Shown here: positions 6,286-23,708 of the stretch, one piece after another | Position numbering within the stretch: the stretch's first letter is position 1 | Layout of the letters: every line of letters starts with the position of its first letter | IMG/VR virus record: IMGVR_UViG_3300037264_007326 | Location: 1-26,826 of that record | Strand: one strand, 5' to 3' | Length of the DNA stretch: 26,826 nucleotides | Source of the DNA: a virus | Translations under genes and position numbers: made by a program | Notes under the pieces: generated by a model | What the model was told of the DNA's origin: nothing | Databases searched by the model: none | What the model saw: the letters and a program-made list of their open reading frames with translations, nothing else

Positions 6286-7896
6286 ATGATAAATGAACTT
6301 CCAGACCATTTAGGTTCTATGGCGCATTTTGCCGAGTCAAATGGAGACGCCAAAAATAGATTAAAGAAGAGATTATCCCAGGATAGAAGACCAACAACAC
6401 AAACCTCTACTGACTCCTGGGTTAATTGGGGAGGTATGGCTGATGTTTTGGGACAACCATTTGATGTTGCCAAAATTCCCCTTTCTAAATTGGAACAAAT
6501 GCAAAGAGATCCAATGCTTTCCTTTGGATTGATGTTTGTTAAGGTTCCGTTAATTCGCGCCCCCTGGTATATACAAAGTTCTGATGCAAGGAGGGCATCT
6601 TTTGTAGATAATGCCCTTAGAAAAATATATGGAAGATTAATACTTGCATATTCAAATTGTTTTTCATTTGGCTTTTCAGGAATAATTAAAAGATTTGAAT
6701 ATGAAAATCCTGATTGGGTATTTATAGATAAGAATGATCCAGAAAGCACAGAAGCAAAAGTTTGGGACACTGACATACAGGCGTTAACCTGGAAGCCATT
6801 CTTGGCATTAAACCCTCGTCAGGCATCTCCTCATTGGAATGCCAAAGGGGAGTTTGCAGGAATTGATTATGTTCCAGCTCAATCAACGTTTCCTTTTTTC
6901 AATATAGGAAATAGCAATACAGGAAGGGCGGCAGATGTCCCTCTTGATTGGGCGCTTTGGGCTACAAATGAAAAGGATTCTGTATACGGTTCACTTTGGG
7001 GGTATCCAAGACTAGGATATTCTTATCGCTATTGGTGGTCCTATTGGTATTTGTTCGGATTAGCAGATAGAGCATTTGAGAGATGGGCTGATCCTCCAAT
7101 TGTTGTTTATCATCCAAATGAAGTTGGTATAGACGACGAAGGTAATGAAGTTAACTATGCGATAGAAGGCCTGACCGTTGCAGAAAAATTTAGATCAGGA
7201 GCAAATATTTCTCTCCCTGGTTCAGCCATCACAAGCGGACTTGACGATAAGGCTTCCAATATGAGAGAATGGGAAATAAATCAAATGAAGTCTGAAGCAA
7301 ACTTCAATGCCATGGACACATGGTTCAAATATTTGGATGTTCAAAAACTTAGATCAATGATGGTTCCAGAACAAAGTCTTATGGAGGGCCAAGGTGGATC
7401 AAGTTCAAGAAACGTGGCAGAGCAATTTGGCGATATATTCCAGGAATCTCAAGCTGTTGTTATGCAGGAAATTGACGATATGATTAATAGATACATGATT
7501 CCTCAACTTCTTGAAGCCAACTTTGGGCCGGGAGGAGCCACATGCAAGAAAATAACTACAGGGTTTGATCCAGCGGATATTGAGACAATGAGATCTATAG
7601 TTGGAGCCTTTGCAAATAAGGATACGGAAATTCCAGTGGATATGAGGGAAACATTGGAGCGTCTTGGAGTTCCAACTATGAGCCAAGAGGCATATATGAG
7701 ACATCTTCAGAAAAAGGCAGAAGAGTCCGAAAAAATAAGAACTCAAGAGATTGAAGCCAAACAAGGAAATGCAGGTGTAACAAAAGAAGGTCTTTATTAT
7801 GACGAAAAAGAGGTAATTGTTCTTTCCGATGATGAACACGGTGGCTTTAAAAAGTGGCTTGATAAAGTAAGAGGAAAGGGCGACACAAATATTTAA
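6286..7896 (+). CDS. Portal protein
   Basis: At 536 residues it has the normal size for a portal, the dodecameric ring at the DNA-entry vertex. It starts two bases after TerL. Supporting features are the early segment with QMQRDPMLSFGLMFVKVPL (entry helix and beta region), the aromatic WWSYWYLFGLADRAFERWADPP stretch, the KLRSMMVPEQSL segment leading into an acidic and Gln-rich helical crown (SSSRNVAEQFGDIFQE), and a charged, flexible C-terminal tail (about 470-536). These resemble portals of the phage_portal/DUF935 type. The ribosome binding site is weak (AAGAAAA), so coupling to TerL is likely. It is followed by 90 gene-free bases. Confidence 0.88.
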   Translation: MINELPDHLGSMAHFAESNGDAKNRLKKRLSQDRRPTTQTSTDSWVNWGGMADVLGQPFDVAKIPLSKLEQMQRDPMLSFGLMFVKVPLIRAPWYIQSSDARRASFVDNALRKIYGRLILAYSNCFSFGFSGIIKRFEYENPDWVFIDKNDPESTEAKVWDTDIQALTWKPFLALNPRQASPHWNAKGEFAGIDYVPAQSTFPFFNIGNSNTGRAADVPLDWALWATNEKDSVYGSLWGYPRLGYSYRYWWSYWYLFGLADRAFERWADPPIVVYHPNEVGIDDEGNEVNYAIEGLTVAEKFRSGANISLPGSAITSGLDDKASNMREWEINQMKSEANFNAMDTWFKYLDVQKLRSMMVPEQSLMEGQGGSSSRNVAEQFGDIFQESQAVVMQEIDDMINRYMIPQLLEANFGPGGATCKKITTGFDPADIETMRSIVGAFANKDTEIPVDMRETLERLGVPTMSQEAYMRHLQKKAEESEKIRTQEIEAKQGNAGVTKEGLYYDEKEVIVLSDDEHGGFKKWLDKVRGKGDTNI

Positions 7897-7904
7897 TATA
7901 TGAC

Positions 7905-7910
7905 TATAAT
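7905..7910 (+). promoter_or_regulatory. Candidate -10 box before the first virion-type gene
   Basis: A consensus TATAAT lies in the 90-base gap between the portal gene and the next gene. There is no matching -35 or TGn extension and the surroundings are AT-rich, so chance is a real alternative. No terminator hairpin is seen in this gap. Confidence 0.3.
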
Positions 7911-7986
7911 ACAACTAATATTATAAATAACTCATGTAAGATTTTAAAGGAAATAAAAATAATTTACAAAAGGCAGGTGACTTATT

Positions 7987-8436
7987 ATGCCAGTAACAAG
8001 CAAATGGTTTGGTAACGGACTTTTAGGGCAATATAGTGTAACAGCAGCAAGACGAGTTGATTGGGCAACAGATGCAATTACCGTTTCTCTTCACACGGTA
8101 ACATATGTTCCCAGCCAGGACGCAGATGATTTCTGGAATGACGCCACAAATGAAATTTCAGGAACAGGATATTCAACTCCAGGTTTGGTGCTTGGTTCAA
8201 AAACAACAGCATATGATTCAGGCACAAATGAAACAAGACTTGATGCCGCAGATGCAGCATGGACTACTGCTTCATTTACAGCAAGAATCGCCGTTGTATA
8301 TTCAAATACAGGCGGTGCATCAACAACAGACCCGGTTCTTACTTATGTGGACTTTGGTGGAGACGAAACAGTGTCTTCAGGAACATTCACAATTCAGTGG
8401 GACGCGACGGGCGTGGCTAAGATTACCGCCTCATGA
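7987..8436 (+). CDS. Small beta-rich virion-type protein
   Basis: A 149-residue protein made of short beta strands separated by Gly/Asp/Thr turns. It starts MPVTSKWFGNGLLGQYS and contains the VDWATDAITVSLHTVTYVPSQDADDFW block, then VSGTGYS-like and YVDFGGDETVSSG segments. Similar small proteins are widespread in actinobacteriophage structural regions, usually without a defined role, and I recognise that general pattern only. A good site (AGGTGA, seven bases before the ATG) supports the start. It directly follows the portal gene but is too small to be a normal major capsid protein. A head-decoration or tail accessory role is inferred. Confidence 0.7.
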   Translation: MPVTSKWFGNGLLGQYSVTAARRVDWATDAITVSLHTVTYVPSQDADDFWNDATNEISGTGYSTPGLVLGSKTTAYDSGTNETRLDAADAAWTTASFTARIAVVYSNTGGASTTDPVLTYVDFGGDETVSSGTFTIQWDATGVAKITAS

Positions 8437-8480
8437 TTTTCGTAACACTCTAAGATATAGCTCCCAAGGTAATGTGTTTG

Positions 8481-8489
8481 TGCTATAAT
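8481..8489 (+). promoter_or_regulatory. Extended -10 promoter before the HNH gene
   Basis: TGCTATAAT, a perfect extended -10, begins 17 bases before the HNH start codon. The predicted transcript start (about 8496) is almost at the ATG (8498), so the message would be nearly leaderless. No -35 is visible. The 61-base gap 8437-8497 holds no hairpin. Confidence 0.5.
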
Positions 8490-8497
8490 GAAGAGAT

Positions 8498-9220
8498 ATG
8501 AAAAATTATGAGAAAGACTTCAACGGGCAATGGTGGTATGTTTATAAGAGTGGAAGAGACAAAGCTCTCGAAAGAATCTGCCTCTATTGCGGAAGTTTAT
8601 TTTATTGTCGCGCAGCAGAGAAAAGAGATTGTTGCACACAAAAATGCACTAGAGCAAGTGAACCACCCAAAGAAATGGCTATAGCTAAAGAACCAGAGCA
8701 AGTCAGAGAAAAGTATAATTATTCTAAAGATGAATTTGGTTGGTGGTGGTATATAGCCGGAGGAACTAAATGCAGATGCAAGGTAAAAAAATGCGAACAA
8801 TGCAATAAATATTATATAATTGCGCCCCAACATTTCAAAACTTCACGTTTTTGCACAAGACATTGTAGCTCCAAATCTCAACCTAAACAGGGAGAAAAGT
8901 CTCGCAGATGGAATGGTGGAAGGAGAAAAAATAATAGTGGTTATGTTGAAATTTGGATTTCCAAAGAAGAAAGACAAAAAAGAAACAGAAAAAGACAATA
9001 TATATTAGAGCATAGACTTGTAATGGAAAAAAAACTTGGAAGAAAATTACAGGAAAATGAATCCATACATCATATAAATGGCGTTAAAGATGATAATAGA
9101 CCAGAAAATCTTGAATTATGGGTTAAGCATTCTACACCAGGTATTAGAACCAAAGATGTGATAGAATGTATTTGTTGTCAAGGCAAGGGTTATATTTTGA
9201 AAGAGGATTCCATTGGTTGA
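8498..9220 (+). CDS. HNH endonuclease with duplicated zinc-ribbon modules
   Basis: A 240-residue, basic, probably homing-type nuclease. The C-terminal half has an HNH_3-like core: EHRLVMEKKLGRKL (about 171-184), SIHHINGVKDDNRPENLELW (189-208, catalytic His pair and Asn). The N-terminal half contains two copies of one module, each with a WWY motif followed by CxxC and a second Cys pair: residues 12-50 (C28, C31, C46, C50) and 82-123 (C99, C102, C119, C123). A last CICC lies near 225. It sits between virion-type genes, has its own promoter candidate and a poor ribosome site (AAGAG very close to the ATG), and looks like an inserted element. It overlaps the next gene by 8 bases. Confidence 0.88.
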   Translation: MKNYEKDFNGQWWYVYKSGRDKALERICLYCGSLFYCRAAEKRDCCTQKCTRASEPPKEMAIAKEPEQVREKYNYSKDEFGWWWYIAGGTKCRCKVKKCEQCNKYYIIAPQHFKTSRFCTRHCSSKSQPKQGEKSRRWNGGRRKNNSGYVEIWISKEERQKRNRKRQYILEHRLVMEKKLGRKLQENESIHHINGVKDDNRPENLELWVKHSTPGIRTKDVIECICCQGKGYILKEDSIG

Positions 9221-9647
9221 AATTATAAAATCAAATAATATTTTTTCAAAGGATGTTTTAATTGACGCCCCTCCTGCAATTTTTGGTTCAACCCCAAATG
9301 AAAGGCAACTAAAAAAGATAATCAAATCAATAATTCCTGGTGTTGAAATTGACGCCAAGGATGTTATTGATATGCAACAGGCAACGATTAGGGAATTAGA
9401 AAGTAATTTAGAAAAAACAAGAATTGTGGCAACAACAATTGCCAATTCCTGTCTTTGTTTATATAAAATGTTATTGGATGAGGGCTATACTGATGACGGG
9501 GAATCAGTTAGATTTTCGAAGGAATTGGTAGATAGAATGAAGGGTGCAGAGATATCTATAACCGAAGATGGTTTTGGAGATAGATATTTGCGCATAACTT
9601 CAAGACATGATCATCCAGTTTGGGAAGGAAGGCAAATAGATGAGTGA
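9213..9647 (+). CDS. Hypothetical protein, 144 aa, TTG start
   Basis: The TTG at 9213 has GAGG six bases upstream, inside the end of the HNH gene. The product is acidic and mixed helix/strand: an N-terminal segment with a DAPPAIFGSTPNERQLKKIIKSII stretch, a helical centre (IDMQQATIRELESNLEKTRIVATTIANS) that may form a short coiled coil, and a C-terminal part with strands (ISITEDGFGDRYLRITS). The stop overlaps the next gene by eight bases. I do not recognise the family. Its place in the virion-type operon suggests a structural or assembly accessory, but nothing in the sequence proves this. Confidence 0.6.
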   Translation: MVEIIKSNNIFSKDVLIDAPPAIFGSTPNERQLKKIIKSIIPGVEIDAKDVIDMQQATIRELESNLEKTRIVATTIANSCLCLYKMLLDEGYTDDGESVRFSKELVDRMKGAEISITEDGFGDRYLRITSRHDHPVWEGRQIDE

Positions 9648-9900
9648 TTTTGAAGAAGAAGTTTCTGAATTATTAGCAGAGCCAGTGCAATTAAAACTTT
9701 ATAAGGTTGTTTCACAACCAGAAGGTGAGCCAACATTTGTTGATGAATCAAGTGGTAATGAAAGACCATATATGATTCAAACGGTTCTCTTGGCTGAAAG
9801 TGAAAAATTGGCCAAGAAACAAGTTGAAGCACAGAATTGGGATCTACATTTGTCTGGTGATTTACTTTATGATGTGGTTAGTGTAGAAGAACAGGAATAG
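9640..9900 (+). CDS. Small acidic hypothetical protein, 86 aa
   Basis: Begins MSDFEEEVSELLAEPVQLKLY, strongly acidic, with a central region rich in strands and a helix (LAESEKLAKKQVEAQNWDLH) ending in an acidic tail. It overlaps the previous gene by eight bases and ends three bases before the next ATG, so it is part of the same operon. The layout of a strand, a loop, then a Lys-rich helix recalls small phage proteins of unknown role. I do not recognise it. Confidence 0.6.
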   Translation: MSDFEEEVSELLAEPVQLKLYKVVSQPEGEPTFVDESSGNERPYMIQTVLLAESEKLAKKQVEAQNWDLHLSGDLLYDVVSVEEQE

Positions 9901-9903
9901 TAT

Positions 9904-10347
9904 ATGGCTATTTATTCAGCGGCAGGAAGAAGTACGGGCGCTGGCACAACATTGTTGCCAACTGTTTCCTTGTACGCTGTTACGGCATCCGGCGGTGCTA
10001 TTAGAGAGATTGGTGTTTTTAATACAACTGTTACCGCTGTTGCGCTTAGAGTTGCAAGATTAACGACAGCAGGAACTCCAGGCACAGGCTTTACAGAAGT
10101 TGAATATGATGAAGATTCTCCTGCTCCAGTAATGACGGCGTTTGATACGCATACATCTACGGGCCCTACAATTGCAACAGGATCATTTAGACAGGCATCT
10201 CTTGGTGCAGCTATTGGTTCAGGACTTATATGGACATTTGGCGGAAGAGGACTTGTTATTCCCCCTGGAACTGCTAACGGTATTGGCATTATTGTTGCAG
10301 TAGGAACAGGACAAATAATAGACTTTTATTTTGATTGGGAAGAATAA
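9904..10347 (+). CDS. Beta-sandwich virion-type protein, 147 aa
   Basis: Starts MAIYSAAGRSTGAGTT and continues through IREIGVFNTTVTAVALRVARLTTAGTPGTGF, a conserved-looking middle, and GLVIPPGTANGIGIIVAVGTGQ before an acidic end (FDWEE). This order of an N-terminal glycine loop, an IREIGVFN strand and a VIPPGT strand is one I recognise from small proteins in actinobacteriophage structural regions, where they are annotated as hypothetical. GGA lies seven bases before the ATG. It abuts the next gene. A role in decorating the capsid or tail is inferred. Confidence 0.7.
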   Translation: MAIYSAAGRSTGAGTTLLPTVSLYAVTASGGAIREIGVFNTTVTAVALRVARLTTAGTPGTGFTEVEYDEDSPAPVMTAFDTHTSTGPTIATGSFRQASLGAAIGSGLIWTFGGRGLVIPPGTANGIGIIVAVGTGQIIDFYFDWEE

Positions 10348-10851
10348 ATGTCAACATATCGTATCCCTATCTTGGATTATGCCAATCCATCTGGAGGTAC
10401 AGCGGGAGCGGTTTTTTGTGAGCCTTATGCAATAAAAGCCACAAATGATGTGTGGAACCGACTTGTGTGGATCTTTGTCAACACAGCCACTCGTGATGGA
10501 TTACATTCAGGTTTTTCTGTTCCTAAAAATTATTCAACGGGCGCCAAATTTGTTGTTGTATGGACATCTACTGTTATAACAGGAGATGTAGTTTGGGATT
10601 TAGATTATCGCACTGTTGCAGGTGATGATGCAAATAGTTTAGATCAAACTGGAAATGAGGAATCACTAACTGTTACGGATACAGCTCCAGGAGCAGCAAA
10701 TAGAAGAATGGAAGTATCAATGACAGCAACCGCAGCAAATTTTGCCGCTGACGAAGAAGTTGAATTTGTCTTATTTAGAGATGGTGCAGCAACGGATACA
10801 TTGGCTGGGGATGTTGTTGTGTTTCAACTACTTTTTGAATATCAGGACTAA
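10348..10851 (+). CDS. Beta-rich virion-type protein, 167 aa
   Basis: Begins MSTYRIPILDYANPSGG directly after the previous stop, with GGA seven bases upstream. The body alternates hydrophobic strands with Asp/Thr/Asn turns (FVVVWTSTVITGDVVWDLDYRTVAGDD) and ends FQLLFEYQD, a pattern of a jelly-roll or Ig-like sandwich. It is the last of a run of genes with the local, AT-rich composition before the GC-rich modules begin. The family is not known to me by function. A virion surface role is inferred from neighbours and fold character. Confidence 0.65.
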   Translation: MSTYRIPILDYANPSGGTAGAVFCEPYAIKATNDVWNRLVWIFVNTATRDGLHSGFSVPKNYSTGAKFVVVWTSTVITGDVVWDLDYRTVAGDDANSLDQTGNEESLTVTDTAPGAANRRMEVSMTATAANFAADEEVEFVLFRDGAATDTLAGDVVVFQLLFEYQD

Positions 10852-10853
10852 TT

Positions 10854-11606
10854 GTGGCGCTCACATTTGGAGCCGCCACAACAGACCGGGTTGACATCGC
10901 CCTCGGCCTTGGAACTCCATCCGCGCTCTCGATCCTGATGTGGGTGTATCCGACGACCCGCACGAATGCTCGGCGTTGGTGGGCGCAATCGGGGACAGAA
11001 GGGGGTGTCTATTCACACAACATCTTGTGGAACTTCGTCGGCACCGGAATCGAGATCGAGGTTGTGCGCACAACCTCTTCCGCTATTGTCGTCACGTCTG
11101 ACACGTGGACGCTGAACAAGTGGTGGTGTCTCGTGGTGACGTACTCGGAGGCGGACGGAATCGACGCCTACCGGGGCGATCTCACCACCGAGCTTGCGCA
11201 GCTCACCTACTCGACGGACACGACCGGGGTTGGCACCACCAAGACGGCGGCCGAGGACAGACACCAAATCTCCAACATCGGCACCAATAACACGTTCCAG
11301 GGTCGGATCGCCCGCGCCGTCCGCTGGCGTCGCAGAATGACGCTCGCGGAGGCGATCGGCCAGCAATGGATCACCCGCCCCGACGCCGACACCGACTTCT
11401 TCTTCGAGCTTGGCTACGCGGGCACCGGCACACAGCCGAACCTCACGAGCCTGGGGAACGGCAAGAACGGGACTGTGACGGGGGCGACGGTGTCGGATCA
11501 TGCTCCTTTGCCAATGAAAATTATCCCAAGACGATCTTATTATAAGCCACCAACAGAAACAAGTGGTCTTCAATTACGTACTATTACTTCTCAATTGAGG
11601 TTCTAG
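10854..11606 (+). CDS. LamG/concanavalin A-like protein with GC-rich N-terminal module
   Basis: A 250-residue protein starting with GTG at 10854, with AGGA six bases upstream. Residues about 1-217 form a LamG-like jelly roll: LTFGAATTDRVDIALG, FSxxxW-type strand SILMWVYPTTRTNARRWWAQ, WWCLVVTYSE and QGRIARAVRWRRRMTLAEA. Such domains bind sugars or proteins on phage surfaces. The DNA of this part is very GC-rich (42 of 60 bases in the line from 11341). Near 11505 it changes abruptly to AT-rich DNA that codes for a basic tail (PLPMKIIPRRSYYKPP...) rich in Arg/Lys/Tyr. The foreign composition points to recent exchange with a high-GC phage, leaving the native tail in place. Confidence 0.8.
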   Translation: MALTFGAATTDRVDIALGLGTPSALSILMWVYPTTRTNARRWWAQSGTEGGVYSHNILWNFVGTGIEIEVVRTTSSAIVVTSDTWTLNKWWCLVVTYSEADGIDAYRGDLTTELAQLTYSTDTTGVGTTKTAAEDRHQISNIGTNNTFQGRIARAVRWRRRMTLAEAIGQQWITRPDADTDFFFELGYAGTGTQPNLTSLGNGKNGTVTGATVSDHAPLPMKIIPRRSYYKPPTETSGLQLRTITSQLRF

Positions 11607-11607
11607 G

Positions 11608-12369
11608 ATGCCGTTCCCCACTATTCCAACTGTTGCCGCTGGCCGTGTTCTTACGACGAACATCGACGGCACCGGCACCCGCACGTTCCCTGACCTGTCC
11701 GGGCTGACCAAGAACGAGGGCGACCTACTGATCGGGATCATCGTCGCCTACCAGTCGTCGGCCGGGGCGGGCGCACCGGGCGGCACCGTGTTCTCCGCCT
11801 GGGGTGCGTCGTTCACCGAGTTCTGCGACCAGATGACCGCCGACTCCTCCACGATGGCGATCGGGGCGGCGTACAAGTGGTCTACGGGGTCGGAGACGGG
11901 GACGTTCACGGTGACGCAGGCGGCGACGATCACGGGAGGCGCCTCTTTGATCCTGCTCTCGATTCCAGCCTCGGACGGCATAACAGCGCCGGAGGCTGGA
12001 ACCATAGCCGACGGCACTGGTGCCGCAGCCGACCCCGGCTCCTTCGACCCGGCAGGGTGGGGCGCGGAGGACACCCTGTGGATCTCCGTCAACTGCAACG
12101 GCATGATCAACGCGGGCGGGTCGTGGACGGCGACGGTCGCGACCGCGCCGACCAACTACACCGACAGGGTGGACACCAACAGGGCGGACGACAGCATCGT
12201 AGGCCGGGTCGAAGGGGCGGTCGCGTTCCGCCAGTTGAACGCCGCAGCCGAGGATGTCGGCGCGGGCAGCTCGGATGTGTCGAACGCACGCAACTCGGCT
12301 CTGCTGATCGCGGTACGCCCGCGTCCTATTATTCCAATAGTTGTTATTCCAAGGGGCTGGCAACAATAA
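11608..12369 (+). CDS. Virion-type protein, GC-rich body with AT-rich ends
   Basis: A 253-residue protein starting MPFPTIPTVAAGRVLTTN. The ribosome site GAGG lies in the AT-rich end of the upstream gene, seven bases before the ATG. The body has strands and Gly/Ala/Thr loops (LSGLTKNEGDLLIGIIVAYQ, AAYKWSTGSETGTFTVTQAA, EDTLWISVNCNGMI, ARNSALLIAVRPRP). I recognise this order from small actinobacteriophage structural proteins of unknown role. From about 11640 to 12325 the DNA is GC-rich. The last 14 codons (PIIPIVVIPRGWQQ) are AT-rich and echo the IIPR of the preceding protein's tail. This is a second module swap beside the first. Confidence 0.75.
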   Translation: MPFPTIPTVAAGRVLTTNIDGTGTRTFPDLSGLTKNEGDLLIGIIVAYQSSAGAGAPGGTVFSAWGASFTEFCDQMTADSSTMAIGAAYKWSTGSETGTFTVTQAATITGGASLILLSIPASDGITAPEAGTIADGTGAAADPGSFDPAGWGAEDTLWISVNCNGMINAGGSWTATVATAPTNYTDRVDTNRADDSIVGRVEGAVAFRQLNAAAEDVGAGSSDVSNARNSALLIAVRPRPIIPIVVIPRGWQQ

Positions 12370-14790
12370 ATGAGTAATAATTATAGATCTCCTATTGTTC
12401 AGCCAAAATTAGAGAAACGAGATATCGCTCCTCAAGTTATTTTTGCTTTAACTCTTGCTGCTCCTGTCTCTGTAACAATAATTTCTCCTGCTGCAAGCGC
12501 AACATCCTCTGTAGCTTCACAAATTCCAGAAATTAAAATTTCAGCAGTTGCTACATCAACCGCTTCTGTTTCTATAACAGCAACAGATATTACAATATTC
12601 CCTCTGTCATCAAGTTCAACTGCTTCGGTTGTTTCTCCTATACCTCTTGTAACAGCAATAGCAACAGTATCAATAGCTACAGCATCGGTTGTTGCTTCAA
12701 TTCCTGCAATAACAGTTGCTTCAAATTCAATCGCAACTGCTTCTATTGTTTCTCCCGTCCCGCAAGTTACCGTTACTTCTGTAGCCAATGCATCAGCATC
12801 AATTTCAAGTCCAGTTCCAGAAGTTAAGGTTACAGGAATTGCAATTGCAACAGCGAGCATTTCTGCCCCTGTTATTTCAACTGGAAATAGTGTAACAATA
12901 ATTTCTCCTGCTACAAACGCAACAGCCAGCATATCATCTCCTGTTCCAACTATAACTATTTCTACAAATGCAACCTCTACGTCTTCTGTAACTTCACCAA
13001 TTCCTGTAATAACAATAACAAGTGTTTCAAGTTCTATAGCTTCTATTGTAAGTCCTACTCCAAAAATAACTGTAACTTCTGTTGCTAATTCAACAGCTTC
13101 AGTATCGTCACCTGTTCCTGAAGTCAAGGTTTCATCAATTGCTTTGGCCACAGCTAGTGTTGGACAAGTAAATGTAGACAATACTGTTTCTCCGCCAGCT
13201 ATATCAACAGCCTCAATAACAAGTCCTATTCCCGTTATTACAATTGTTGCAGGGGCGGGTTCCAATGCTTCTGTAGTTTCTCCAACACCAAATATTACAG
13301 TAACTTCTGTAGCTATTACTACGGCGTCAGCAAATAGTCCTGTAATTTCTGTATCTAATACAGAAGTATCTCCGGCAGCAATTGCAACAGCTTCAATTTC
13401 TTCTCCTGTGCCAACAATTACAGTAACAACGGGTGCATCTGCGACAGGAACATCTAGTTCAACGCCAGCAATAAATGTTCCATTAACTGCTGCTCTTGCT
13501 ACAGCAAGCGTTTCTGCGCCAATAATAAGCACTTCTGGAAATATAACAATAATTGTTCCGTCTACGAATGCAACAGCAAGTGTTTCAACTGTTGTTCCAA
13601 AAATAACTATTACTGCGATTGGAACATCAACAGCTTCAATTTCTTCGCCAATTCTAGAAATTTCTGTTTCAACTGTAGCAGGCGCCACAGCCTCTTCTAA
13701 CTCTCCAATACCTTCAATCACAATAACAAGTATCGCCTCTGGAACAGCCTCTTCTGCTTCAACTCCAACAATAACTGTTCAGGCTCCAGTTGCTATAGCC
13801 AATGCATCTGTAGACACAACTGGCGCATCAATAGATGTCACAATTGGTCCATTAAGCGCAACAGCAACTTCATCTATTGTAAGTTCAATTCCGGAAGTAT
13901 TGGTGACAGCAGTTGCTACATCTACGGCATCAGGGATATCACCAATACCAACAATTACTATTGTTTCAATACCAGCTTCAGTAAACGCCTCTGTAACATC
14001 TCCTGCTCCTGGCCTTACCTTTGTGGCAAATGCTATAGCTACTGCCTCTATTGTAACCCCACTACCAAAGATAACAATTACTTCTGATTCAGCAATAGCT
14101 GTGGCCAATGTTGTTGCTCCAATAATCTCAATATCAACAAATATAACAATACTGGCTCCAGTAGCCATATCTACAGGAAGTATAAGTGCGCCAATTATAA
14201 AGATTATTGTTGCCACTGTATCGGAAGCTATAGCGCAAACCAATAATCCAATACCACTTATTACAATAACAACAGGGGCTATATCAACTGCCTCAACATC
14301 TTCAACTCCAGTAATAACAATAATTTCTGATGCCTCAATAGCAACAGCAAATATTTCTGCTTCAACACCCAAAATAACAGTTACATTTGCTCCCGCAATA
14401 GCTACAGCAAGTGTTATTGCTCCAGTTATTCCAACACAATCTAGTGTAACAATATTGGCACCAACAGCCAGTTCTATTACAATTAACGGTATTCCAATAC
14501 CAACAATTTCTGTTTCTTCTGTATCATTTTCCACAGCGGCAGGAATTTCACCAATACCTTCATTAACAATTAATCCTAATTCTGCACTAGCCAATGCAAT
14601 TGCCTTTGGAACAATTCCTTCTAAAAAAGGTTATGCTAATTTCTCTATCTTAAGTAGAGGTAGTTCTGCTAATATATATAGCATAAAGCCAGTTGATATT
14701 GAAATATCTCCAAGAAGTTCGCCAAATATTGTCACAAGAAAAACAACTTCTAAGATATATGCGCCAACCTCTGACCATAGCGAGACATAA
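12370..14790 (+). CDS. 806-aa Ser/Thr/Ala-rich repeat protein, putative mucin-like fibre
   Basis: After an N-terminal region of about 30 residues (MSNNYRSPIVQPKLEKRD...), some 700 residues are built from a degenerate unit of about 19 residues with the pattern SxxSPxPxITVTSxAxATA. Ser and Thr make up about a third (21 of 60 in one stretch counted). Ala, Val, Ile and Pro fill most of the rest, aromatic residues are almost absent and Cys is not seen. The C-terminus (about 750-806) is different: GYANFSILSRGSS... with Tyr, Arg and Lys. A long beta-strand-and-turn fibre is likely. It lies among virion-type genes and ends on the start of the next. The high Ser/Thr content makes it a candidate O-glycan acceptor for the glycosyltransferases downstream. 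Function is inferred. Confidence 0.8.
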   Translation: MSNNYRSPIVQPKLEKRDIAPQVIFALTLAAPVSVTIISPAASATSSVASQIPEIKISAVATSTASVSITATDITIFPLSSSSTASVVSPIPLVTAIATVSIATASVVASIPAITVASNSIATASIVSPVPQVTVTSVANASASISSPVPEVKVTGIAIATASISAPVISTGNSVTIISPATNATASISSPVPTITISTNATSTSSVTSPIPVITITSVSSSIASIVSPTPKITVTSVANSTASVSSPVPEVKVSSIALATASVGQVNVDNTVSPPAISTASITSPIPVITIVAGAGSNASVVSPTPNITVTSVAITTASANSPVISVSNTEVSPAAIATASISSPVPTITVTTGASATGTSSSTPAINVPLTAALATASVSAPIISTSGNITIIVPSTNATASVSTVVPKITITAIGTSTASISSPILEISVSTVAGATASSNSPIPSITITSIASGTASSASTPTITVQAPVAIANASVDTTGASIDVTIGPLSATATSSIVSSIPEVLVTAVATSTASGISPIPTITIVSIPASVNASVTSPAPGLTFVANAIATASIVTPLPKITITSDSAIAVANVVAPIISISTNITILAPVAISTGSISAPIIKIIVATVSEAIAQTNNPIPLITITTGAISTASTSSTPVITIISDASIATANISASTPKITVTFAPAIATASVIAPVIPTQSSVTILAPTASSITINGIPIPTISVSSVSFSTAAGISPIPSLTINPNSALANAIAFGTIPSKKGYANFSILSRGSSANIYSIKPVDIEISPRSSPNIVTRKTTSKIYAPTSDHSET
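12460..14600 (+). repeat. Degenerate coding repeats of about 57 bases
   Basis: The protein repeat has a period of about 19 residues with some longer units. At DNA level the copies have diverged through synonymous change, so few exact repeats remain. The clearest pair is 12471-12503 and 12891-12923, offset by exactly 420 bases with two mismatches in 33. Endpoints of the repeat region are approximate. Confidence 0.75.
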
Positions 14791-15086
14791 TGACACAAAC
14801 ATTTTATCAAGATGAACAAATAATTTTTAATATTACTTTTTATAGTGATGCGGCTAAAACTTTACCTGTTGATCCCACTACAGTAACTCTTGAGGTTCAA
14901 AAACCAAACTTATCAGTTGTTAATCCAACTGTAAGTCCAGATGGCGCACGACCAGCAAATACAGGTAAATATACAGCAAGCTATGTAGTGGTTGATTATG
15001 GTTTGCATGATTGGCGCTGGATAACAGTCAGTCCAATTATTGTAAGACAAGGAAATATAAAAGTTGAAAGGAAATCAACAGCTTAG
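14790..15086 (+). CDS. Small Ig-like phage protein, 98 aa
   Basis: A compact beta-sandwich: an N-terminal QDEQIIFNITFYSDAAKT, DPTTVTLEVQKPN in the middle, the DGARPANTGKYTASYVV strand-turn with the GKY(T)A signature, and GLHDWRWITVSPI near the end. This order (strand, DPTTVTL, GxYxA, W-x-W) is typical of short Ig-like domains in actinobacteriophage structural operons. The ATG overlaps the last base of the preceding stop. It is the last gene before the third swapped module. An adaptor or decoration role is inferred. Confidence 0.7.
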   Translation: MTQTFYQDEQIIFNITFYSDAAKTLPVDPTTVTLEVQKPNLSVVNPTVSPDGARPANTGKYTASYVVVDYGLHDWRWITVSPIIVRQGNIKVERKSTA

Positions 15087-15106
15087 TTTCTTAGAGGAGA
15101 ATTATT

Positions 15107-15148
15107 TTGGCACTACTTACCAAAGTCATCTTCATCGACAAAACCTAA
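15107..15148 (+). pseudogene. 13-codon remnant or leader with strong Shine-Dalgarno site
   Basis: GAGGAG precedes a TTG at 15107 by about six bases, the best ribosome site in this neighbourhood. The frame gives MALLTKVIFIDKT and then stops (TAA 15146-15148). That N-terminus looks like the start of a virion-type protein, so it may be the stump of a gene replaced by the GC-rich module that starts at 15163. A short leader peptide coupling translation to the next gene is the alternative. Confidence 0.4.
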
Positions 15149-15162
15149 CCTTGGAAATATAG

Positions 15163-15993
15163 ATGGCTGTCGCTCACGCTCACGCATCCGAATCTCATAC
15201 TGGCGCAATTGGCTCGATTTCGGAAGCGTCCTTCAACTGGCAGCATGATGATCCGGCTGCAACGCCCGCCCCCAAGGGTGTTCTTATTTTTGTCGTAAAT
15301 CTCGTCTCGAATACTGATATTGTTTCCTCGGTTACCTACAACAGTGTCTCAGTTCCAAAGGTGACGGGGGCAGAGGCCGGTGATACGACGACAGAGCCAG
15401 GTCACGTCACTACATACTTCCTTGGATCAGGCGTATCAACCACAGATCCGGCGACTGTTGTCGTCAACCGCACAAATAACACAGATGAATTGTGGGCGGT
15501 TGCCGTTACTGTTACTGCTGCCGCAGGTAAAGATACAGATATCCACACGGCTGGTATCGTGTTATTGCAGGATGACGGAACTCTGGCAGAGCAGAGTGTG
15601 ACAGACGGCTCGCCTGGTTCTAACTCGGTCCGCTACGCCGCCGCTTTCTCCGGTCTTCCCAGCTTTCCCCCTACTGGCGCCAGTTCAACTGCCCTGTTTG
15701 ATTTCGACACAGGTCAACAGACAGCGGCGGTGGTTAGAGAGACAACTGCCGGTCAGGGCGCACGCAATGTGGGTTTCGCCTCGGGTACGTCTGACGACCG
15801 CGCCGTTGTACATCTAGCAATAAAAGAAATTTCTCAATCTATAACAATTGTTTGTCCCGCTGTAAATTCAACTGCAAACATTGCCACAGTTATACCCAAA
15901 ATTGATATAATAAGTATTTCTACTGCAATTGCTACAATTAATTCTGCTGTTGTCGAAATAAGACCATTTGCAAGAATAGCCATTAGTTTATAA
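15163..15993 (+). CDS. Virion-type protein with swapped N-terminal module and repeat-like tail
   Basis: A 276-residue protein. Residues about 1-218 form a beta-rich domain (SFNWQHDDPAATPAPKGVLIFVVNL, VTTYFLGSGVSTTDPATVVV, YAAAFSGLPSFPPTGASST, FASGTSDDRAVVHLAIKE) encoded by GC-rich DNA: 39 of 60 bases in the line from 15601. Near 15815 the DNA becomes AT-rich, and the tail SITIVCPAVNSTANIAT...KIDIISIS matches the unit of the 806-residue repeat protein upstream. Recombination through the repeat is a simple explanation. No ribosome site directly precedes the ATG, so translation may depend on the short frame at 15107. A virion surface role is inferred. Confidence 0.7.
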   Translation: MAVAHAHASESHTGAIGSISEASFNWQHDDPAATPAPKGVLIFVVNLVSNTDIVSSVTYNSVSVPKVTGAEAGDTTTEPGHVTTYFLGSGVSTTDPATVVVNRTNNTDELWAVAVTVTAAAGKDTDIHTAGIVLLQDDGTLAEQSVTDGSPGSNSVRYAAAFSGLPSFPPTGASSTALFDFDTGQQTAAVVRETTAGQGARNVGFASGTSDDRAVVHLAIKEISQSITIVCPAVNSTANIATVIPKIDIISISTAIATINSAVVEIRPFARIAISL

Positions 15994-16019
15994 ATTTATA
16001 TTTTAAAAGGGATGTAAAA

Positions 16020-18314
16020 TTGGAAGATAAAAGAGTTGCATGTTGTATTATAACAGGGGATGATTGGCGAGAAGAAGAAGTAAAGAAGCTACTAGAGTCT
16101 CTTGAACCTCATGTTCATGGAATTTTTGTCAATTATAATGGAAAAAACAAAAAATTAAATTGGCAAAAATGGACTACGTTGCCAATAATATATAAAAAGT
16201 TTAAATGGGAAGATGATTTTTCTCTTGCCAGAAACCAATCTTTTTCTCTTGTACCAGAAAATGAATATTCTTATCGTCTTTGGATAGACACAGATGACAT
16301 TTTGGTTGCTCATAATGGAGCCTTACAAGAGATGTTTGATTCTCTTGATGAATATACAGAGGGAATATTTATTAGGTATGCATATGCAGTAGAACCAGAC
16401 ACAGGGATGGTTGTTGTTGAACAGTGGCGCGAAAGATTTTTATCAACAAAGGTTGATTGGAATTGGGTGTTTCCCATACATGAAGTTTGTAGGTCGCAAG
16501 GTGTTCAATTTGCTAAAAGGGATCATTGTTTTATTCAACATCAAAGAACAAGCGGAGAAGATAGAGGGGCAAGAGAAAGAAATAGAAGAATAATTTCAAA
16601 ATCTCTCAGAGAAAATCCAAACGAACCAAGATTTCACTTTTATTTTGCCGGGGAAACCTTAGCTGAAGCAGATGCGGAACAAGAACCAGAAAAAAAATTG
16701 GGATTAATTGAAGCCTCTCTTCTTGAATATAAAAGATACAGAGAAATGCAGAATGATCTTTCTGACGATGTTTATTTGGCAACATCTAGAATGGCTGAAT
16801 TAAATAGAATGAAAAATGATCATGCCGCCGCCTTGGAATGCGACCTTGAATGTATTGCAATTTATCCAGATTGGCCAGATGGATATGTTGGGGCGGCTAA
16901 ATCCTGCATGGAATTGCAGGATTGGCGCAGGATGAAGTCCTTTGCTGATATGGCTACAAGATGCGGAAGTCCTCAAACGGCGGCAAGCATTGAGCCAATG
17001 ATGTCTGGTTTTACTCCTTTATTTTTAAGGGCTTTAGCTAATGAAGAATTAGGGGATATAGATCAGGCGCTTGAAGACTATAAGGAAGCCCAAAAAATAT
17101 GGCAGCCAGCCAACGGAGATTTGCAAAAAAAGATTGAATTTCTTGAAGGACTTGAAGAAAATAAACCCAATGAAGAACGATGGACCCTAAGAAAGAAATT
17201 AAGGGGAACAAAATCAGAAAAAAGCATTTGTTTCTTTACGCAGCCTATACCGGATATTTGGCATCCAGAGACTTTAAAGGAAGGAGGAGCGGGAGGCGCC
17301 GAAACATGTATAATGAAATTGGCTCCAATGTTTGAAGCAGACGGCTGGAGAGTTGTTGTTTTTGGAACTCCAGGGGCACACAGAGGCTTACATGAAGGCG
17401 TGGAATACTGGAACTCCGATGAATTTTTACCCTCTGAAAAGTTTAAGGTGTTTGTTTCAAGTAGATCCTGCTTTCCTTTCGAAGCCAATATTAAGGCAGA
17501 TGCATCATTTTTGTGGTGCCATGATGTTAATGTTGGAGAACAAAACAGAGAATTATTTATGAAACCAGATGCGGTATTGGGGTTAACCAATTGGCACGCT
17601 CAACATTTATCTAAACTATATAAGATTCCAAAAAATAAATTAAGAGTTATACCAAACGGTATAAATTTGGAAAGATTCCCTATAGAAAAATGGAATAATG
17701 AGGAGAAACAAAGATTAATATATTCATCCTCGCCAGATAGAGGTTTAGATACTATTTTATCATTGTGGCCAATAATAAAACAAAGATATCCAGAAATTGA
17801 AATTCATGTTTTTTACGGATGGAATATAATAGATAAAATAATTGAAATTTCTAGGAGTCGCGGCGCTCATAATACTCATTTAGAACAGTTTAAAAAGAGA
17901 TGCCTATTACAAGTCGAGGCTCTTGGTGGAGAAGATGCAGGAATTTTTATGCGCGGAAGAGTTAATCAAGACATATTGGCCGAAGAGATGATGAATTCCT
18001 TAATTTGGGCATTCCCTACGATGTTTATGGAAACTTTTTGCATTACAAGCATTGAAATTCAGGCGGCTGGAGTTGTTCCCGTGACATCTAATTTGGCGGC
18101 TCTGACGGAGACAATACATCCTGACTATCATAAGGTGGAGGGGTGGCCAAATAATGCGTCATATCAGAGAGAATGGCTGTCTCTTTTGGCTTTTGCCCTT
18201 GAAAATAAGGATTATAGGGAGAAAATTAGACCAAAGGCAAGAGAGCTTGCAGAACAATTCACTTGGGAAAAAAGTTATTCTAAGTGGAATGATTTAATAA
18301 AGGAATTTATATAA
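16020..18314 (+). CDS. Two-domain glycosyltransferase: GT2-like, helical repeats, GT4-like
   Basis: A 764-residue fusion. Residues about 5-200 are a GT-A (GT2-like) domain with LWIDTDDIL near 90 as the metal and nucleotide-sugar site. About 200-370 are helical, TPR-like repeats (AALECDLECIAIYPDWPDGYVGAAKS; LRALANEELGDIDQALEDY). From about 400 a GT-B (GT4-like) domain follows: EGGAGGAET near 420 (phosphate loop), VIPNGINLERFP near 545, SSSPDRGLDTILSLWP, and the ETFCITSIE E-x7-E motif near 670. The start is TTG 16020 with AAGGGATG six bases upstream. Two activities suggest building a disaccharide on a protein or glycan. It lies just downstream of the Ser/Thr-rich repeat protein, its possible substrate. 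Enzyme class is secure, target inferred. Confidence 0.9.
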   Translation: MEDKRVACCIITGDDWREEEVKKLLESLEPHVHGIFVNYNGKNKKLNWQKWTTLPIIYKKFKWEDDFSLARNQSFSLVPENEYSYRLWIDTDDILVAHNGALQEMFDSLDEYTEGIFIRYAYAVEPDTGMVVVEQWRERFLSTKVDWNWVFPIHEVCRSQGVQFAKRDHCFIQHQRTSGEDRGARERNRRIISKSLRENPNEPRFHFYFAGETLAEADAEQEPEKKLGLIEASLLEYKRYREMQNDLSDDVYLATSRMAELNRMKNDHAAALECDLECIAIYPDWPDGYVGAAKSCMELQDWRRMKSFADMATRCGSPQTAASIEPMMSGFTPLFLRALANEELGDIDQALEDYKEAQKIWQPANGDLQKKIEFLEGLEENKPNEERWTLRKKLRGTKSEKSICFFTQPIPDIWHPETLKEGGAGGAETCIMKLAPMFEADGWRVVVFGTPGAHRGLHEGVEYWNSDEFLPSEKFKVFVSSRSCFPFEANIKADASFLWCHDVNVGEQNRELFMKPDAVLGLTNWHAQHLSKLYKIPKNKLRVIPNGINLERFPIEKWNNEEKQRLIYSSSPDRGLDTILSLWPIIKQRYPEIEIHVFYGWNIIDKIIEISRSRGAHNTHLEQFKKRCLLQVEALGGEDAGIFMRGRVNQDILAEEMMNSLIWAFPTMFMETFCITSIEIQAAGVVPVTSNLAALTETIHPDYHKVEGWPNNASYQREWLSLLAFALENKDYREKIRPKARELAEQFTWEKSYSKWNDLIKEFI

Positions 18315-18323
18315 TTAAGTTTG

Positions 18324-18351
18324 TTGTCATTAATATACAATTTGCTATAAT
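18324..18351 (+). promoter_or_regulatory. Strong promoter for the lysis region
   Basis: TTGTCA (18324-18329, five of six matches to the -35 consensus), a 16-base spacer, and TATAAT (18346-18351) extended by TG at 18343-18344. This is the best promoter in the window. It lies in the 57-base gap between the glycosyltransferase and the 86-residue gene. No terminator hairpin precedes it. Confidence 0.75.
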
Positions 18352-18371
18352 AAAATTAAAAGGAGAGTAAT

Positions 18372-18632
18372 ATGTCGGAAAGTCAAGCTTTAGTAAAACC
18401 ATATTGGGTTCAATTTCACACATATGATGAAGAAAATGGAACTTCAAAGGCATATCCATTTTTGGTTGTTCACGAAGGAACATCAGAAAGCGGAGGCAAC
18501 CAAAAGTGGGGATGGGTTTTTGCAAACGATACCGAGCCAAATGTAGCCGGTTTATCAGATGGAGAAAACTGGAGAGGAGATATTGGGCAAGGCGGTCCCG
18601 GAAAGAATGTTTCTTGGTCTGTTTTTGAGTAA
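18372..18632 (+). CDS. Small hypothetical protein, 86 aa, first gene of lysis operon
   Basis: Starts MSESQALVKPYWVQFHTYDEENG, with AGGAG six bases before the ATG and the strong promoter just upstream. Rich in Trp and Gly (WGWVFANDTEPN, GENWRGDIGQGGPGKNVSW), polar, with no membrane segment or signal peptide. I do not recognise the family. It is followed four bases later by the endolysin, so it may be a lysis accessory or a highly expressed virion component. Nothing in it decides between these. Confidence 0.65.
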   Translation: MSESQALVKPYWVQFHTYDEENGTSKAYPFLVVHEGTSESGGNQKWGWVFANDTEPNVAGLSDGENWRGDIGQGGPGKNVSWSVFE

Positions 18633-18636
18633 ATAA

Positions 18637-19317
18637 ATGGGAAAATTAATTAGAAATTTAAGGGAAGGTAGTTCTCCAGGCAAGGATATTTATGCGTCTA
18701 AAAGGATTGTGTTTAAATATCTTGGAGATGAATATTCATGGAAAAAATTAACAAGTAATCTTCCTTTTATTAGAAATAAATTTATTTCTTCATTCACAAA
18801 AAGTGTTAATAAGGCAAGAATTAAATCCAGTTTGCCGCAAAACGGGATTATGAATAATACTTTGTTGGAAAAGATGAGAGCGGCGGGAGCAGTTGATTCA
18901 TATTCAGATAAATTGCTGCAAGATTATGCCAAAGAACAACTAACAAAAATAGTGGAGCCATATCAGGGATTTTCTTCTCTTCATAAATCTCTATGGGAAG
19001 TATACTCCATTGGACGCAACATGGGGTTAAAAGATGGACCTGGCTTAGCCAGTGGAACATACAATCCTGGTTCTAGATTGCCAAGCGGAAAAAAATCAGA
19101 TCACGCCCATCTTCCCTCTTATGCGTTTGATCTAGACATTGTTCAATACACAGGTTGGAATAATCTTAACGCTAGAGCTTATTTTAATAAAATTATTAAT
19201 CGTCCAGAAATAAATTATGCCATATTAGGAAATAAAATATGGAGTAAAAGTAACGGTCTTAATAGTTATAATTATGGCGGACATGAAAATCATATTCATA
19301 TAAGTGCAGTTCACTAA
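18637..19317 (+). CDS. M15-type metallopeptidase, probable endolysin
   Basis: A 226-residue protein that probably cuts peptidoglycan peptides at the end of infection. Zinc-site residues fit the M15 (D-Ala-D-Ala/L-Ala-D-Glu peptidase) pattern: SDHAHLPSYAFDLD with His158 and Asp165 (H-x6-D), then GGHENHIHIS with His219 and His221 (HxH). Residues 1-70 are basic and could be a wall-binding or linking region. No signal peptide is seen, so it needs a holin for export, and the next gene encodes a holin-like protein. The ribosome site is weak. The peptidase fold is fairly secure, the exact bond cut is not. Confidence 0.82.
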   Translation: MGKLIRNLREGSSPGKDIYASKRIVFKYLGDEYSWKKLTSNLPFIRNKFISSFTKSVNKARIKSSLPQNGIMNNTLLEKMRAAGAVDSYSDKLLQDYAKEQLTKIVEPYQGFSSLHKSLWEVYSIGRNMGLKDGPGLASGTYNPGSRLPSGKKSDHAHLPSYAFDLDIVQYTGWNNLNARAYFNKIINRPEINYAILGNKIWSKSNGLNSYNYGGHENHIHISAVH

Positions 19318-20655: not shown

Positions 20656-20819
20656 TGGATTATATTAGCGATAGAGATTTTGGAGACGAAACAAACAATG
20701 AAGAAGAAGATGAGCCTGATATTGGCGTAAGGGAGCCAATATTGCCTCTTAAACCTTTATTGAGTGATGCAGCAAAGATTTCCTTGGAAAACATAGAGGA
20801 ATTAATAAACGCAGTATAA
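20655..20819 (+). CDS. Small acidic hypothetical protein, 54 aa
   Basis: A short gene exactly filling the gap between the HD hydrolase and the next glycosyltransferase, with TAATG overlaps at both ends. The peptide is very acidic (DRDFGDETNNEEEDEPDIG), followed by a Pro/Leu segment (REPILPLKPLLSD) and a short helix (AKISLENIEELINAV). No family is recognised. The perfect fit between neighbours and the coupling signals support it as a real gene. Confidence 0.6.
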   Translation: MDYISDRDFGDETNNEEEDEPDIGVREPILPLKPLLSDAAKISLENIEELINAV

Positions 20820-21625
20820 TGAAGGTTGCAATTTTTACTCCAACCGCACATTTTGGAAATTTAGATGTGTTGGAGGCATCCTTAACTAGACAAACATATA
20901 AAAATTTTGTTTGGATAGTTGCTGATGAATTAAAAGGAAAAAGAAAATATATTTGGTATAAAATAATAAGTAGGGTTGATTTTCCAATTTTATTTATACA
21001 ACCAACAAAAGAAAAAAATAAAAAAAGAAATTTAGCCAAGGCTTATAATGTGGCGGCGGATTACGCCTCTCTTGTCGAAAATTCTGATTTATTTATATCC
21101 TTACAGGATTTTATATGGTTGCCAGAGAATGGTATTGAGAGATTTATTGCGCTTTATGAATGGAAGCCAACTGATTTATATACAGGGGTAACACATATTT
21201 CCAATGATCCTTTCCCCAAGAATGTTAAAGATATAAATGGTCTTTATACAATATTTGATTCCCCTTTTGTAGAAAAACCTAAAAGAATAGGGTGGGAGGA
21301 TGTTAGAGTTAAGAAAATTTACTCCGGTTACCCTGAAGACTCAGTAGTGAAAATAGATCCGCATCATTGGGAGGCGAATTGGGCTGGCGTTCCAGTTAGT
21401 CTTCTGAAAAAAGGTTTAAGATGGAATGAAGACTATGATTATGGAATTGCATATGAAAATTGTGACTTTGCACAAAGGGCAACAAGGGAATATGGAGCAA
21501 ATGTTCTTTTAGATACAGGAAATATTGCTATAAGTCTTCCTCATAAAAAATATTTTAAGGGGGAAGAAGAAGAAATAATAGAATTTAGCAATAGAGAGCG
21601 TTATGAAAAGGATTGGAATCTTTAA
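20819..21625 (+). CDS. Glycosyltransferase-like protein, GT-A fold
   Basis: A 268-residue protein starting MKVAIFTPTAHFGNLDVLEASL, then TYKNFVWIVADE, the usual first strands of GT2 enzymes. FISLQDFIWLPENGIERF (about 98-115) takes the place of the DxD loop as LQDF, a degenerate form. WNEDYDYGIAYENCDFAQRA (about 201-220) matches the later ED-type acceptor loop of GT2 enzymes. The start overlaps the small acidic gene's stop. It is the second glycosyltransferase-like gene of the window and is coupled to a MazG-like gene. The missing canonical DxD leaves activity uncertain. Confidence 0.75.
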   Translation: MKVAIFTPTAHFGNLDVLEASLTRQTYKNFVWIVADELKGKRKYIWYKIISRVDFPILFIQPTKEKNKKRNLAKAYNVAADYASLVENSDLFISLQDFIWLPENGIERFIALYEWKPTDLYTGVTHISNDPFPKNVKDINGLYTIFDSPFVEKPKRIGWEDVRVKKIYSGYPEDSVVKIDPHHWEANWAGVPVSLLKKGLRWNEDYDYGIAYENCDFAQRATREYGANVLLDTGNIAISLPHKKYFKGEEEEIIEFSNRERYEKDWNL

Positions 21626-21897
21626 TGGGAGTTTTGGATATATATAGAATGATACAGGAAGAAAGAGAGCGTCAACTATATAAATATGAACATGGCGAAC
21701 TCGCTTGGATCTGTTCCAGCCCATATAATGAGGCAACTCATGAAATGAAATTGGGTCTTCTTGGTGAAGAGTTTGGTGAGGTTTGTAGAGCTATAAATGA
21801 TGGAGAAGAACCAGAAAGACTTATAGAGGAACTAATTCAATTGGCTGCGGTTGCTGTTGGATTTGTGGAGAGCATAGAAAATGAAAATTACAAATAA
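21625..21897 (+). CDS. MazG-like nucleotide pyrophosphohydrolase
   Basis: A 90-residue all-helical protein. LGEEFGEVCRAIND (ExxE metal motif) and LIEELIQLAAVAVGFVE (second acidic helix, E-x-x-x-A pattern) fit the MazG-like fold, which hydrolyses nucleoside triphosphates to monophosphates. The ATG at 21625 overlaps the upstream stop (TAATG) and has GGA seven bases upstream. A TTG at 21613 is less likely because AAGGA touches it. Lies in the same operon as the HD hydrolase, suggesting pool clean-up. Confidence 0.8.
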   Translation: MGVLDIYRMIQEERERQLYKYEHGELAWICSSPYNEATHEMKLGLLGEEFGEVCRAINDGEEPERLIEELIQLAAVAVGFVESIENENYK

Positions 21898-22087
21898 TTA
21901 TGAAGCCTCTATAGAAATTCAAATTCCAAAAGAAATTAGAGTTTTGGTGTTTAGTTCATATTCACCTTCGGACGACTCTTGTTCTGCGGCGACGAATCTT
22001 ATCATAAAGTGTAATTCTAATTCTTCTGCCAAAGAAGCACAATATATACTTGAAAAATTTATTAAAAATATTGAAAAATATTTATAA
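21881..22087 (+). CDS. Small hypothetical protein, 68 aa
   Basis: The ATG lies inside the end of the MazG-like gene, overlapping by 17 bases, with GGAG about ten bases upstream. The product has strands (YEASIEIQIPKEIRVLVFSS), an Asp/Ser/Asn-rich loop with two cysteines, and a C-terminal helix (KEAQYILEKFIKNIEKYL). I do not recognise the family. Its codon use matches its neighbours. Its reality rests on this and on the overlap. Confidence 0.5.
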   Translation: MKITNNYEASIEIQIPKEIRVLVFSSYSPSDDSCSAATNLIIKCNSNSSAKEAQYILEKFIKNIEKYL

Positions 22088-22096
22088 AAATAAATA

Positions 22097-22333
22097 ATGA
22101 AAATAATTTTTGGAAATAATAAATTTGAAATTGAGGAGCACGCCAAGGAAGTTATTTCTTCCATTAAGAATGAAGAAATGAGGTATCCGAGAAGATCCAT
22201 ACCAATGGGAATACCTTTTCACGCAGTAAGATATCCTTTTGTTTGCGATGACTGTGGGGAGTCATACTGGTCCAACAATGAGTATGGACAGCATGTTAAA
22301 TGTGATAAAAAGGGAAATAGTTTAGGATTTTAA
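22097..22333 (+). CDS. Small zinc-finger protein, 78 aa
   Basis: Contains one C2HC finger: CDDCGESYWSNNEYGQHVKC (about residues 50-69), with a Cys pair, a 12-residue spacer, His and Cys. The N-terminal part is helical (EIEEHAKEVISSIKNEEMRY), followed by a Pro/Arg segment. Such short fingers in phages bind DNA, RNA or host proteins. No ribosome site is visible. It starts nine bases after the previous stop. Function is unknown. Confidence 0.6.
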   Translation: MKIIFGNNKFEIEEHAKEVISSIKNEEMRYPRRSIPMGIPFHAVRYPFVCDDCGESYWSNNEYGQHVKCDKKGNSLGF

Positions 22334-22340
22334 TTAAAAT

Positions 22341-23075: not shown

Positions 23076-23091
23076 ATAAAAATAAAACATC

Positions 23092-23103
23092 TTATCATGA
23101 TAA
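23092..23103. promoter_or_regulatory. Perfect 12-base palindrome TTATCATGATAA
   Basis: A perfect palindrome in the 45-base gap before the methyltransferase, ending 17 bases before its ATG and just before the AAGGA site. It might be a protein-binding site or control access to the ribosome site. Chance cannot be excluded in AT-rich DNA. Confidence 0.3.
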
Positions 23104-23120
23104 TATAAAGGAATAAATTT

Positions 23121-23702: not shown

Positions 23703-23708
23703 TTTAAT

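Follow-up and report, generated by a model that had tools for sequence, protein, structure and literature searches.

GC-rich cores and AT-rich ends in two adjacent phage genes: evidence for recent transfer from a high-GC phage

Two adjacent genes of an AT-rich phage, here termed M1 (10854-11606, plus strand) and M2 (11608-12369, plus strand), carry GC-rich cores that show recent horizontal transfer from a high-GC phage. This conclusion is supported by the outlying composition of the cores, by a close high-GC relative and by conflicting gene trees. Together with codon use, these observations uphold the proposal, made in a preliminary description of this DNA, that the cores were recently imported from a high-GC phage while the native C-terminal ends were kept. 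The genes lie in the window, the whole 26,826-nt stretch analysed here (IMG/VR record IMGVR_UViG_3300037264_007326; GC 0.388), whose genes include a terminase, a portal and a glycosyltransferase. It is probable that two in-frame swaps replaced the cores within existing M1 and M2 genes at an exchange locus, and that the source was a GC-rich phage related to the viral contig L002.

Two-state segmentation of the window (GC 0.39) delimits GC-rich stretches at 10858-11501 (GC 0.63) and 11616-12325 (GC 0.68), in agreement with the compositional switches previously placed near 11505 and 12325. The reading frame is continuous through each junction, as had also been noticed. M1 comprises an imported GC-rich core (10854-11505, plus strand; GC 0.63) and a native AT-rich tail (11506-11606, plus strand), and third-position GC (GC3) is 0.80 in codons 1-216 versus 0.21 in codons 217-250. 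M2 comprises a head (11608-11652; GC3 0.27 in codons 4-14), an imported GC-rich core (11653-12324; GC3 0.88 in codons 15-236), an all-beta domain in its structural model, and a native AT-rich tail (12325-12369; GC3 0.29 in codons 237-253), all on the plus strand. Both cores are outliers in synonymous codon use (z -12.3 each): none of 824 control segments from the phage's other genes is as low as the M1 core, and none of 802 as low as the M2 core. Codon use in the tails is ordinary for this phage (z -1.0 for M1 and -1.1 for M2).

Both genes had been described as a GC-rich N-terminal part followed by an AT-rich tail. The tails are indeed AT-rich, but the AT-rich head of M2 had been overlooked. 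M2 is a native–foreign–native gene with an AT-rich head of ~15 codons, in which the family-consensus peptide FPTIPTVAAGRVL is written in AT-ending codons; the head is either native or derived from a lower-GC allele. Because of this head, an AT-rich island of ~140 nt, consisting of the M1 tail and the M2 head, parts the two GC-rich cores. The IIPR and VIPR letters said to be shared by the tails are present, but the match is no better than chance: the longest run common to both tails is reached in 15% of shuffles, or in 11% with a reduced alphabet. Since [IVL]IPR also occurs in none of 14 other tails, the common anchor deduced from this motif was rejected. A direct repeat flanking M2 at its junctions (11617-11635 and 12325-12343, 79% alike) was likewise considered; 18 other families occur in the same region, and nothing is claimed for it.

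The closest M2 relative is in L002, a contig of GC 0.68, with 89% DNA identity over 674 nt and 92.4% identity between the core proteins over 238 aa. Directly upstream of M2 in L002 lies the only M1 relative found; it is truncated 5′ by the contig edge, and the 3′ part of M1 is 80% identical to it in DNA over 220 nt. Along the alignment, similarity is high before ~11506, slight as far as ~11640 and once more high up to ~12325, and a single blastn match of 1034 columns bridges the AT-rich island. The M1 tail has little DNA similarity to L002, though its peptide aligns in part; the M2 heads, and the M2 tails in part, also align between window and L002. The L002 head is GC-rich (0.69) and has a 6-nt deletion, and the window head carries the residues missing there. 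Among 18 heads compared, those of L070, L064, L067 and L083 are nearest to the window's, by an ungapped count that penalises the deletion in L002.

L002 differs from the window at 83 of the 690 sites compared and is thus not the immediate donor, and none of the contigs compared is identical to the window's insert. GC3 of the M2 core is 0.87 in the window and 0.90 in L002; with third-position GC so near that of L002, and thus little amelioration, the import appears recent. L002 and L011, the nearest kin of the window's backbone, stem from one metagenome. In L002, a cassette of M1, M2 and a repeat gene precedes a gene with a near-threshold BppU N-terminal match; this gene after the cassette is 36% identical to a Pontimonas phage neck protein, and the next genes, judged by eye from their sequences, resemble tail tube and tape measure genes. 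At the place of the window's 98-aa gene (14790), L002 has a gene that does not match it, so that a common gene order is established for M1 and M2 only and merely suggested for the repeat gene. The neck-protein match, together with fold matches of M2 to Mycobacterium and Gordonia minor tail proteins, speaks weakly for the actinobacteriophage-like donor envisaged earlier.

M2 relatives are present in many viral contigs, and the GC of the M2 core normally follows that of its contig. The difference ranges from -0.035 to +0.059 in 33 of 35 copies, a count that includes near-identical pairs such as L077/L078 and L091/L092 twice, and omits duplicate contigs, the incomplete copies L061 and L093, and L086, which is nearly the same as L085. 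The outliers are the window (+0.303 over its contig) and L015 (+0.142), and the GC excess of the window's core has rank 0 among 254 windows. The phylogenies of M2 and of the portal conflict. In the M2 tree (32 rows), the window groups with GC-rich L002 (support 100/99), and its pairing with AT-rich L067 was rejected (p-AU 0.000175). In the portal tree (33 rows), the window groups with AT-rich L011 (GC 0.40; support 98).

The M2 of L015 sits on a distant branch of the M2 tree, and a clade uniting it with L066 (the contig of L013) and L067 (the contig of L019), whose portals are ~88% alike, was rejected (p-AU 6e-7); the pair of L066 and L067 as a clade was not rejected (p-AU 0.119). Neither the portal nor the terminase of the window was matched in the GC-rich contigs with M2, within flanks that for most contigs span at most 8 kb per side. 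Across the M2 family, the N-terminal domain is the constant part and the C-terminal part is variable, which does not support the idea that the C-terminus is the docking part. Many other phages have M2 joined to a long C-terminal part, often repetitive, and M2 therefore behaves as an N-terminal module whose continuation varies.

The structural model of M2 (pLDDT 90.7, pTM 0.90) is nearly all beta, with the first strand starting at residue 14 and the last long strand ending at residue 236. From the alignment, the codon profile and this model, the crossovers would fall at the edges of the predicted folded domain. No Pfam or PHROG family was matched by more than one of 32 members, and no PDB sequence matched M2. 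Against PDB structures, matches of the model were weak (best Z 4.5). Against BFVD, 52 matches were obtained at E <= 1e-3, with TM-scores below 0.7 among the matches listed; several are named minor tail protein, from Mycobacterium and Gordonia phages (query-normalised TM up to ~0.5, E 2e-5 and weaker). M1 matches Laminin_G_3 (PF13385) at 24.4 bits, below the gathering cut-off of 27.6 (E 3.7e-5), and is possibly lectin-like, of the LamG/ConA type; its fold model, built from two sequences, has pLDDT 30. M1 and M2 are most likely accessory virion proteins and putative adhesins at the neck or tail.

Searches of isolated phages by tblastn with M1, M2, M3, the M2 protein of L003, the L018 gene and the beta-helix gene of L011 gave no match. 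Named bacterial genomes scanned with M2 and with the portal yielded no relative, by short peptide patterns that can miss relatives. In the titles and abstract openings of the literature surveyed, neither the M2 family nor a core swap of this kind is described.

M1 and M2 lie in an exchange locus (7897-16019, plus strand) bordered on the left by the portal gene (6286-7896, plus strand; Portal_Mu, 42.1 bits, and PHROG portal) and on the right by a glycosyltransferase gene with TPR (16020-18314, plus strand; Glyco_transf_4 and Glycos_transf_1 above cut-off). The two border genes abut in L021, L023, L024 and L025; in the window, L013, L017 and L019, 4.8 to 8.1 kb of cargo lies between them. Other cargo than the window's is found in L011, L015, L017 and L018. 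In L011, which the portal marks as the window's nearest kin, the locus holds a beta-helix gene plus one other gene, in DNA of GC ~0.46-0.59, so that resident AT-rich versions of M1 and M2 were not found in this nearest kin. The clearest example is the comparison of L015/L061 with L017, which are 98% identical in DNA outside the locus and have different genes inside it: similarity stops at a stop codon and restarts at a start codon, and L015 and L017 have identical portals. The L015 module recurs in the separate contig L061 (97% over 388 nt). At the same locus, an ORF of L018 (4399-5115) has, in frame, an AT-rich head, a GC-rich core (0.68) and an AT-rich end; like M3, this module has no further relatives in viral contigs.

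Across 12 contigs, high-GC windows of 150 nt make up 19 of 276 inside the locus versus 2 of 588 outside, counts drawn from non-independent windows, with 9 of the 19 contributed by the analysed window itself. Inside the locus, none was found in L013, L017, L060, L012, L020, L022 or L027. By a per-gene test for a GC-rich core, with a threshold chosen after the cases had been seen, five of six passing genes lie inside the locus, as do 48 of 165 ORFs; the only passing ORF outside is on the minus strand of L023 (2479-4341). Also outside the locus is the window's largest GC step within a gene, in ORF 25787-26191, whose AT-rich start resembles a signal peptide. In another contig, L036, a stretch of GC ~0.6 (16942-18769) was seen downstream of the portal in a contig of GC 0.48.

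Two other observations concern gene content in the window. An HNH endonuclease gene (HNH_3; 8498-9220) lies within the exchange locus, and a candidate role as a homing-type driver of exchange is conceivable. Beyond the right border, positions 20819-25083 hold a cluster of sugar-related genes, including an RMNT_CmcI-type O-methyltransferase (E 4e-54), a second methyltransferase and a GT2 glycosyltransferase; L023 has similar genes.

The preliminary description was confined to M1 and M2, both of which stand, and missed the exchange site in kin as well as a third switching gene, M3 (15163-15993, plus strand). M3 has a GC-raised core up to 15806, where GC drops from 0.55 to 0.30, a weaker switch than those of M1 and M2 (codon z -6.6 in the core and -0.1 in the tail). 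Its AT-rich tail is of the repeat type found in R806 (12370-14790, plus strand), a gene directly after M2 that encodes 806 aa of short Ser/Thr/Ala/Val repeats (GC3 0.14) and matched no family in profile searches. The M3 tail and R806 are 44% identical over 52 aa (E 3e-10), and given this homology M3 resembles a domain joined to a stalk of repeats. Profile comparison ruled out M3 as a relative of M2, and no donor of M3 was found.

It is proposed that the AT-rich phage already carried homologues of M1 and M2, and that each folded core was replaced in frame through recombination with a siphovirus-like phage that was GC-rich, related to L002 and otherwise unrelated to the recipient. This would have involved two separate swaps, one per gene, which kept the native tail of M1 and the native head and tail of M2. 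Recombination inside existing homologous genes would explain the native ends and the preserved frame, and retention of these ends would leave neighbouring genes, start sites and stop sites intact. M1 and M2 may bind sugars or polymers on the host surface; an exchange of cores would then alter binding while the ends and gene order stay fixed, and the benefit would be a changed binding target. Considerably more tentative, and on the doubtful side, is a broader reading of the locus as a standing hub, at which the clade repeatedly replaces only the folded cores of surface proteins while short terminal adapters stay fixed by gene neighbourhood, with cores drawn from phages of hosts as different as 39% versus 68% GC suggests. 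If that reading were true, virion parts would cross supposed host barriers.

The whole M1–M2 pair may instead have been imported as one GC-rich block, with ends that later gave way to resident DNA or were formed anew. L002 likewise has M1 next to M2 in this order, with a repeat gene after them, and one blastn match covers both; as that match bridges the island, a single import followed by local replacement is conceivable. The island, however, holds the M1 tail and the M2 head with native codon use, which calls for resident homologous DNA under core swaps and block import alike, and import as a block is considered unlikely. A narrower alternative concerns the M2 head, whose AT-richness could stem from a tendency of gene starts towards weak mRNA structure, leaving only one intragenic crossover in M2, on the 3′ side. 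The start of M1 is mildly AT-rich (GC3 0.55 in codons 2-12), and the M2 head is only 11 to 15 codons long, with a codon z of -1.7. Yet GC-rich copies of M2 have GC-rich heads, as in L002, and the window's head has little DNA continuity to L002 besides its extra residues; this explanation is accordingly given low probability.

An assembly chimera, formed when reads from a GC-rich phage were wrongly built into an AT-rich contig, is highly improbable. The window is a single unverified fragment, and the shared metagenome of L002 and L011 indicates that both kinds of phage can co-occur. Against a chimera, the junctions are in frame and restore family-consensus peptides in native codons, L018 has the same kind of switch, the L015 module was seen again in L061, and the insert has no identical counterpart among the contigs compared. 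The probability of an old, stable difference in composition, kept by selection on protein or codon use, is close to negligible. Nothing beyond the GC profile itself favours it; the contrast sits in synonymous sites, and the M2 and portal trees conflict. AT-rich phages with whole-length homologues of the same GC profile had been named as its signature. Whole-length M2 homologues do occur in AT-rich or mid-GC phages, but with native GC: L067 (core GC 0.46, GC3 0.30), L087 (core GC 0.47, GC3 0.33), L070 (GC3 0.37) and L066. For M2, and for M2 only, these low-GC3 homologues refute an old difference.

The favoured core swaps would represent a recent and finely resolved transfer of putative virion domains between phages 30 GC points apart, with no detectable common terminase or portal in the flanks compared. 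Such a transfer means that both phages came together in a single cell, or that another phage or a host acted as intermediary, and it thereby offers a way to gauge to what extent host barriers restrict recombination between phages. As a large GC contrast marks crossovers without a reference genome, the same scan could count core swaps across metagenomes.

Module mosaicism and domain shuffling are well described in phages. In the portion of PMC10684548 considered here, tail fibres and tail spikes are the only proteins in which recent domain exchange across phage families is seen. The present case resembles that recently emerged mosaicism in its recent exchange at more than 90% identity and in the virion or host-contact type of the proteins. 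The fragment shared there is at 70-90% identity or more, a level that the M2 core (92.4% over 238 aa) also reaches. The mosaicism as described in that portion, however, links otherwise unrelated proteins, whereas the M2 proteins belong to the same family, with heads and part of the tails aligning; here the exchange affects the core, M2 retains both of its ends, and the partners are ~30 GC points apart.

The same portion of PMC10684548 describes the neck passage structure proteins of Lactococcus phages as a diversity hotspot with carbohydrate-binding domains. Likened by description and gene neighbourhood, both systems have variable modules with suspected sugar binding, and the L002 cassette adjoins a neck-protein gene; the site in the window's clade, in contrast, is between portal and glycosyltransferase. 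Distantly related Alteromonas phages share a host recognition module thought to be horizontally transferred, according to the part of PMC10579305 considered. Both cases have unrelated phages sharing virion modules, but the part considered describes whole modules within one host genus, whereas single domains across a large GC gap are involved here. The M2 model is also alike in predicted fold to minor tail proteins of actinobacteriophages, at 10-18% sequence identity among the matches listed. What is new here is a family unnamed in the libraries searched, the retention of ends on both sides of a core, and the 30-point GC gap: a sharp variant of known mosaicism, not a novel type of system.
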